This document shows positions 502 to 959 of a DNA stretch of 29,159 bases, one piece after another. The translations under genes were made by a program, and so were the position numbers. Position 1 is the stretch's first letter. Every line of letters begins with the position of its first letter. The stretch comes from a virus, in the IMG/VR virus record IMGVR_UViG_3300032202_000036, positions 1 through 29,159 of that record; one strand, 5' to 3'. A model generated the notes under the pieces. It saw nothing but the letters and a program-made list of their open reading frames with translations. It was not told the origin of the DNA and made no database searches.

Positions 502-940
502 TGGGCAGGGGTTGTTGGTCACTTACGTCGGCAGTTAAACGCGCCGTGGGCATAAAGCCAACAACCCCATGCCCACCAGAGCATAGGCACGGTAGGGTTG
601 AGTCACCCATGACGACCGTGGACCAGGGCCAATGCCTGCGTTGAGAGAGCGGCATGTTTAGATGTACGTAGCCTCTCAATCCATTGAGCCGATAAGCAAG
701 TGGGGGCAGCCGGGAGAGACCGGCACCAGTTATGGCAAGTCGTGGAGGTGCGTTGTGTTTGTACAGGTAGGGACGTAACCGAGGTGTTTTGTTGAGGTTG
801 TGTTGGATGGTGCGGGCCGATGAGCAAAGTTACATGTACTTTTGCAAGGCGGACGGATATAAAACACTGTGACAAAATGTCGAAATCGGTATGTTGCTAG
901 ATCGGGTTGCTAGTGCCCGGCCACCTCCACTGACTTGCCG
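502..940 (+). ncRNA. Candidate large structured RNA of about 440 nt
   Basis: No convincing coding frame exists here. By hand count 541-960 is about 54% GC, against roughly 38-43% in sampled flanking lines. Helices appear in succession. P1: 502-518 with 558-575, 17 bp, one bulge (A569), inner hairpin 529-532/543-546. P2: 577-587 with 629-638, then 588-593/615-620 and 595-598/605-608. P3: 641-647/673-679, 7 bp. P4: 709-713/720-724. P5: a long-range helix, 734-750 with 922-939, 17 bp, one bulge (U931), closing about 170 nt that hold 784-790/861-867, 824-830/838-845, 871-874/878-881 and 903-906/916-919. Size, complexity and a phage early-region setting recall the GOLLD and ROOL RNA classes, but I cannot match it to either. 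It lacks recognisable group I intron core, tRNA, tmRNA or RNase P signatures. The strand is taken from its neighbours. Ends are approximate; no U-tract follows, so it may be processed from the operon transcript. Confidence 0.75.
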
Positions 941-959
941 CCAATATGGGGAATGATAG

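Follow-up and report, generated by a model that had tools for sequence, protein, structure and literature searches.

Between two ORFs near its left end, the window (the whole stretch of DNA analysed, a virus record of 29,159 bases) holds 458 nt of noncoding sequence. The product of the following ORF, 960-1109, is a short Zn-ribbon with weak, sub-threshold similarity to Lar in Pfam, and beyond it lie a RuvC-like resolvase, an HNH/DUF968 protein, terminase, portal and scaffold. We conclude that the noncoding RNA region 502-959 comprises at least two parts, a twin-hairpin element (681-725) and a closed domain (733-940). The features of the region are as follows.

502-959, plus strand: noncoding stretch of 458 nt between ORF 244-501 and ORF 960-1109, from the ORF lists
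681-685, plus strand: 5' strand of stem I, CCATT; stem I forms in the fold of 681-960
699-703, plus strand: 3' strand of stem I, AGTGG, directly before the linker
704-708, plus strand: linker GGGCA (family: UGACA); in the family, T in 99 of 115 and G in 114 of 115 copies at the first two positions
709-725, plus strand: stem II hairpin GCCGG-GAGAGA-CCGGC with the conserved A725, from pattern matches and compensatory pairs
734-750, plus strand: 5' arm of the long-range helix, from direct reading, fold, repeat finder and helix scan
751-921, plus strand: branched domain of 171 nt inside the helix, from the minimum-energy fold
922-939, plus strand: 3' arm of the long-range helix with U931 bulged, from direct reading, fold, repeat finder and helix scan

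No match to Rfam 15 was obtained in the window at the gathering threshold, and ARAGORN called no tRNA or tmRNA in it. A match to RF_site5 (Ma3 frameshift signal) at 489-591 reached 25.1 bits against a gathering threshold of 35 (E 0.033) and was treated as chance. GOLLD and ROOL are large phage noncoding RNAs that form Rfam families. The region resembles them as a large structured phage noncoding RNA, but differs in that no family of this type was matched at 480-980 when hits up to E 5 were accepted.

A long-range helix at 734-939

The sequence-only reading had proposed that positions 734-750 pair with 922-939 and thereby close a separate 3' domain. Direct reading confirmed the helix: GGCAAGTC (734-741) pairs with GACTTGCC (932-939), and GTGGAGGTG (742-750) with CACCTCCAC (922-930), giving 17 Watson-Crick pairs with U931 bulged. 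A repeat finder returned the same two pairs of arms, each 100% complementary. The arms are separated by 171 nt (751-921), the distance given in that reading, and a U733-G940 wobble can extend the helix. When 734-939 was folded, the helix appeared in both the minimum-energy and the centroid structures (-76.6 kcal/mol, z -3.31, 2 of 200 shuffles as good). The same was observed for 490-965, which also folds better than its shuffles (z -3.31, 1 of 100 as good).

The helix was further assessed in a scan for long-range helices with arms at least 100 nt apart and one bulge allowed, in which it scored 43. None of 300 dinucleotide shuffles of 502-959 scored as well (mean 27.3, sd 3.2, max 40); elsewhere in the same phage, the highest score in 121 stretches of 458 nt was 33. 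The earlier statement that such a match is unlikely to arise by chance thus holds. That the helix is not a simple terminator also agrees with our data. An intrinsic terminator was rejected for this site, as no terminator-like site (a short GC-rich hairpin and then a T run) was found in 1-1150, and no T run follows the helix.

The earlier interpretation is partly supported. A separate, closed 3' domain distinct from a terminator has support, as no other long-range helix of the region scores better; the comparative support sits with the element at 681-725. We best read 733-940 as a separate, lineage-specific RNA domain closed by the 17-bp helix, the 3' end of which lies about 20 nt ahead of the start codon at 960.

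A relative carrying the domain was sought in several ways. With blastn and nhmmer none was found when the whole region was compared with 37 loci, 35 of which are terminase relatives. Against phages the whole region gave only a short match of 36 bases and no relative of the domain, and against plasmids no relative of the domain was found; the plasmid search returned a match to a Rhizobium plasmid. A strict pattern search gave no matches. Neighbouring proteins used as queries gave five loci in one search and none in another, and the twin-hairpin element was present in none of the five. An antisense ORF at 603-875 was also considered. Its translation found nothing in PDB and no confirmed relative in viral and genome contigs, and since no relative was confirmed, the ORF is without support as a gene.

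The closest relative covering the place is L004 (terminase 83% identical), which has protein genes instead of the RNA, namely an ORF of 308 aa and others. The short frame starting ATGACCCTCCGC at 199 and ORF 244-501 of the window jointly resemble one ORF of 63 aa in L004, and the gene at 199-501 looks split or duplicated relative to L004 1578-1769. Two short repeats were also seen in the noncoding stretch: a near-repeat GCCGATRAGCAA at 689-700 (the stem I loop) and 815-826 (the 3' domain), and GTTGCTAG, which occurs twice, at 893 and 906.

A twin-hairpin element upstream of the helix

Nine bases upstream of the helix, at 681-725, lies an element that the sequence-only reading did not mention. 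Its plan is a variable stem I, a linker with the family consensus UGACA, the hairpin GCCGG-GARAGA-CCGGC and then an A. Among 115 nonredundant copies, the linker T and G counted above precede the searched pattern and the A follows it in 89. The copy in the window departs from the linker consensus at two positions, and its stem I has a competitor, as the fold of 490-965 prefers another hairpin there. Its stem II hairpin ends at 724, with no T run after it, and the long helix starts at 733/734. The element is almost certainly a real conserved RNA structure, and the comparisons below establish its conservation, the pairing of both stems, its strand specificity and its phage context.

The trail to these copies started with the 36-base match, which occurs in three cyanophage records of equal length, outside annotated genes in the one region opened. 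In L038 a weak match carries the same hairpin, with a RuvC relative about 1 kb downstream of it, an arrangement shared with the window. The 19-mer pattern RCAGCCGGGARAGACCGGC occurs in at least 120 stretches in IMG/VR and the 22-mer pattern TGRCAGCCGGGARAGACCGGCA in at least 117 stretches in GTDB genomes. By their record titles, the GTDB matches listed include Proteobacteria, Clostridia, Bacteroidales, Chloroflexota, Planctomycetes, Spirochaetes, Omnitrophota, Patescibacteria and others. In E. coli the element is rare (6 of 5,426 genomes). Of 32 records with a match, not restricted to E. coli, most hold a single copy.

One or two ORFs near the element were compared with PHROGs for 12 of the GTDB contigs. 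Families typical of phage functions were found in nine (portal, terminase, tail fibre, Mu-like transposase, helicase, polymerase, head protease, primase, integrase). One further contig (L186) has a methyltransferase and a radical-SAM phage family, and two (L226, L227) have only PHROGs families of unknown function. In 28 phage records found with a GAGAGA query, several of them duplicates or near relatives of one another, the match was unannotated in 24, lay in a hypothetical protein in three and had no annotation to compare in one. At the gathering threshold Rfam 15 gave only tRNA and DUF805b matches on the 29 distinct element loci scanned. No paper on the element was found in open-licence PubMed Central by an exact 18-mer string or by topic, and with shorter exact strings the papers among the matches listed were unrelated by title. 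The only closely related system met in these searches is put.

Pairing of stems I and II

A relaxed, strand-specific scan of 301 sequences gave 286 matches and none in reversed controls. Stem II occurs with alternative arms (GCCCG/CGGGC, TGCGG/CCGCA, GTCTG/CAGGC, CCTCG/CGAGG), and versions with G-U wobbles exist. Twenty inexact copies were collected in a search that did not require pairing (2 matches in its reversed control); 12 of them are fully paired, five have four of five pairs, two have three and one has one. When the partner base of the GCCCG variant was left free to be C or G, it was G in 120 of 120 among the matches listed, 78 of which are nonredundant. A direct exchange is seen between mEp390 and an E. 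coli prophage, which share a 30-nt context in which GCCGG/CCGGC is replaced by GCCCG/CGGGC.

For stem I, a complement to the four bases that adjoin the linker is present within 40 nt in 138 of 225 copies, compared with 89.4 (sd 6.0) after permutation of the strands; by a gap of two bases to the linker the signal has faded. In a second, differently searched set the counts were 47 of 78 against 32.5 (sd 3.3), and a stem of 5 bp gave a weaker signal (19 against 13.2, z 1.7). These numbers refer to a stem that ends before the linker; a first test, in which the linker U was forced into the stem, showed little signal. In L093 (7130-7215) and related prophage leaders, a word GGAAAGACC precedes stem I, the stem I loop is a constant NTGACCA-like sequence, and the arms of stem I change together (GAGC/GCTC, GGGC/GCCC, GGA/TCC).

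What follows the element

ARAGORN placed the start of a same-strand tRNA 3-8 nt downstream of the element in 17 of 203 nonredundant copies (window copy included). Within 60 nt of the element 18 tRNAs were found, against 0.26 at random positions, and on the opposite strand none was found within 150 nt of the 203 copies. In the second set a tRNA starts 2-8 nt downstream in 7 of 78 copies, with 0.04 expected within 15 nt. Open starts with a ribosome site on the same strand are also frequent within 100 nt downstream, in 49 of 190 copies against 4, 4 and 10 in three controls, and in 19 of 76 copies of the second set against 2, 2 and 1. Since tRNAs and coding starts both follow the element, neither translation control nor tRNA processing alone would account for every case.

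Terminators are not clearly enriched downstream: 22 were found in the first 200 nt, against 11-15 per upstream bin of 200 nt on the same strand, and antisense bins of 200 nt gave counts as high or higher (16-33). A context statistic based on ORFs was dropped as GC-rich antisense ORFs swamp the signal; it had placed 111 of 220 motifs in ORFs of at least 100 aa (78 on the opposite strand) and 869 of 1100 random positions.

Closed domains occasionally follow as well. Helices with a score of at least 33 start within 25 nt after the element in 5 of 197 copies (window included) and in none of 197 shuffled ones; at a lower cut-off of 28 the excess is small (15 against 9). In L177, a Vogesella contig, a helix of 15-16 bp, ACCAACACAGAATCC/GGATTCTGTGTTGGT, stands immediately after the element and encloses about 170 nt. 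The domain of the window occupies the slot that tRNAs hold in other phages, starting after nine bases as compared with 2-8 nt.

Three other recurrences were observed near the element. L053 has four copies (4968, 5712, 5936 and 6144) within 1.2 kb, and the sequence between them contains stretches resembling tRNAs, none of which is called as a tRNA. A word like AACACGCATGRGGATTGG stands just after the element in L056, L124, L131 and L159 and is perhaps a second recurrent RNA domain. In lambdoid prophage leaders, a word GCTGTGTGTAGTCTTGGC (L093 7015, L097 2865, L111 1239, L162 2630, L294 2925) runs into a hairpin 37-342 nt downstream of the twin-hairpin units, and the hairpin is terminator-like with a T7 run in four of the five.

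Position in annotated genomes

Twenty annotated regions with the element were opened. In eight of them (mEp390, Medea1, P7641, BUCT708, three E. coli prophages and Cruim01) the repressor gene precedes it and the leader of the next operon contains it; other genes intervene between repressor and element in Medea1 and Cruim01. The repressor of P7641 is our reading from its place, as the gene is annotated only as hypothetical. In the lambdoid prophages the element is at the putL/nutL position. In mEp390 a promoter-like site, TTGACA-18-TACATT, lies between the repressor gene and the element, with 1.0 such sites expected on either strand of that stretch; a second unit with a GAAGAGA loop is found 213 bases upstream of the main one, and no copy was found on the rightward strand.

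In three of the 20 regions the element is upstream of terminase, with tRNAs also adjoining in two of these, and in three more it lies before or inside a tRNA array; ct7L0027 has a second copy 6 nt before a tRNA. The other regions are exceptions. The element stands before an HNH gene in MinM2, between small ORFs in CRES9 and in a gap of 1.7 kb in an Acinetobacter plasmid, and in Alexa and RcCWillis it adjoins the integrase gene and is not co-oriented with the next gene.

Comparison with nut and put

The boxB hairpin of phage lambda has a 5-bp stem and a purine loop and is bound by N. Stem II of the element is likewise a hairpin of 5 bp, has a loop rich in purines and occurs in early-operon leaders. 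The element differs from nut in a GARAGA loop of six bases, the fixed UGACA linker, a stem I upstream and hosts from many phyla. No boxA-like word was found among the top enriched words upstream of the element.

HK022 put RNA attaches to the zinc-binding domain of beta' and needs no phage protein to suppress termination; according to PMC9378689, putL lies just downstream of PL. With the 30 residues named in that paper as a fingerprint, HK022 putL was located on the leftward strand with 30 of 30 positions. HK022 and mEp390 belong to the same subfamily. The element shares with put the form of two adjacent hairpins in a phage leader, which the statistics for stems I and II bear out, and the PL-side position, which was seen in several lambdoid prophages; in mEp390 the left leader that corresponds to that of HK022 contains it, preceded by the repressor and the promoter-like site. 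In contrast, stem II of put measures 37 nt, includes internal non-canonical pairs and lacks a GARAGA hairpin, and HK022 has a putR, whereas no rightward copy of the element was found in mEp390. The element motif has no match in HK022. Identity with HK022 put was therefore rejected, as the element does not show the sequence and position fingerprint of putL and its stem II differs.

Possible roles of the element

Judging by position, form and constancy, we tentatively favour the reading that the element is a cis-acting transcription antiterminator, put-like without being put, though at somewhat less than even probability. The positions that suggest it are the putL/nutL place, terminase leaders, tRNA arrays and long noncoding leaders; the form is the two-hairpin plan shared with HK022 put; and the constancy of the hairpin across phyla suggests that its target is universal, RNA polymerase for instance. 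The nascent twin hairpin would bind host RNA polymerase during elongation, or else a universal polymerase factor, and the polymerase so bound would resist pausing and termination, as with HK022 put RNA. Long untranslated leaders, tRNA arrays and structured domains such as 733-940 could thereby be transcribed through. For the window this would make 733-940 an untranslated RNA domain, transcribed under the protection of the element, and the ribosome site of ORF 960 beyond the domain would stay free. Against this stand the lack of clear enrichment of terminators downstream, the failure to find a rightward copy in mEp390, a stem II unlike that of put, the integrase-side copies in Alexa and RcCWillis and the mostly single copies per record, and for the window itself the two linker departures and the competing fold of stem I. 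The broadest form of the reading, one small RNA module, carried by phages into many bacterial phyla, that makes the host polymerase terminator-resistant in cis without a phage protein and shields tRNA arrays and large closed domains such as 733-940, appears doubtful.

The near invariance of the hairpin among variable neighbours, its usual occurrence once per record, its spread across many phyla and its co-location with tRNA genes and noncoding leaders would also suit a small trans-acting phage RNA, or a part of one, carried as cargo in tRNA arrays and noncoding leaders and then processed out; it could, for instance, serve as a decoy of some universal factor of the host or of its defence. We consider this unlikely, as the element often stands directly before a same-strand coding start, recurs in early-operon leaders and at most loci has no terminator of its own, and a stem I free in sequence is unusual for a recognised trans RNA. 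Less probable again is a processing or punctuation element, at or near which a nuclease would cut to free the 5' end of the following tRNA, mRNA or domain. The very short, constant distance to tRNA 5' ends (2-8 nt) and the long closed domains directly after the element in a few loci agree with such a role, but the element also occurs in leaders with no RNA gene after it and before plain coding genes, and most tRNAs in arrays lack it (L088 has one exact motif and 25 tRNA matches). The nutL place in lambdoid prophages, together with the boxB-like 5-bp stem and purine loop, suggests a nut-like hairpin bound by a phage antitermination protein, as boxB is by N; a near-identical hairpin over many phyla is hard to square with one phage protein, and no boxA-like word was seen among the top enriched words upstream. 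This reading appears improbable. That the element acts as DNA, as a palindrome for a dimeric protein or an att-like site, is very improbable. Its arms are inverted repeats and two phages carry it next to integrase, but the conserved loop and flanks are asymmetric, arms with G-U wobbles occur, stem I is variable yet paired, and the strand bias towards downstream tRNAs and starts is strict.

Significance

An element of such reach that has no match in Rfam 15 would be a new phage control element, and the closed domain at 733-940 becomes a candidate for a new phage noncoding RNA. Should the element act in trans, a universal target in the host would be indicated. If the antiterminator reading that we tentatively favour is correct, put-like RNA would no longer be an oddity of a few lambdoid phages but a strategy of general use, and the way in which phages get long untranslated leaders and tRNA arrays transcribed would be accounted for.
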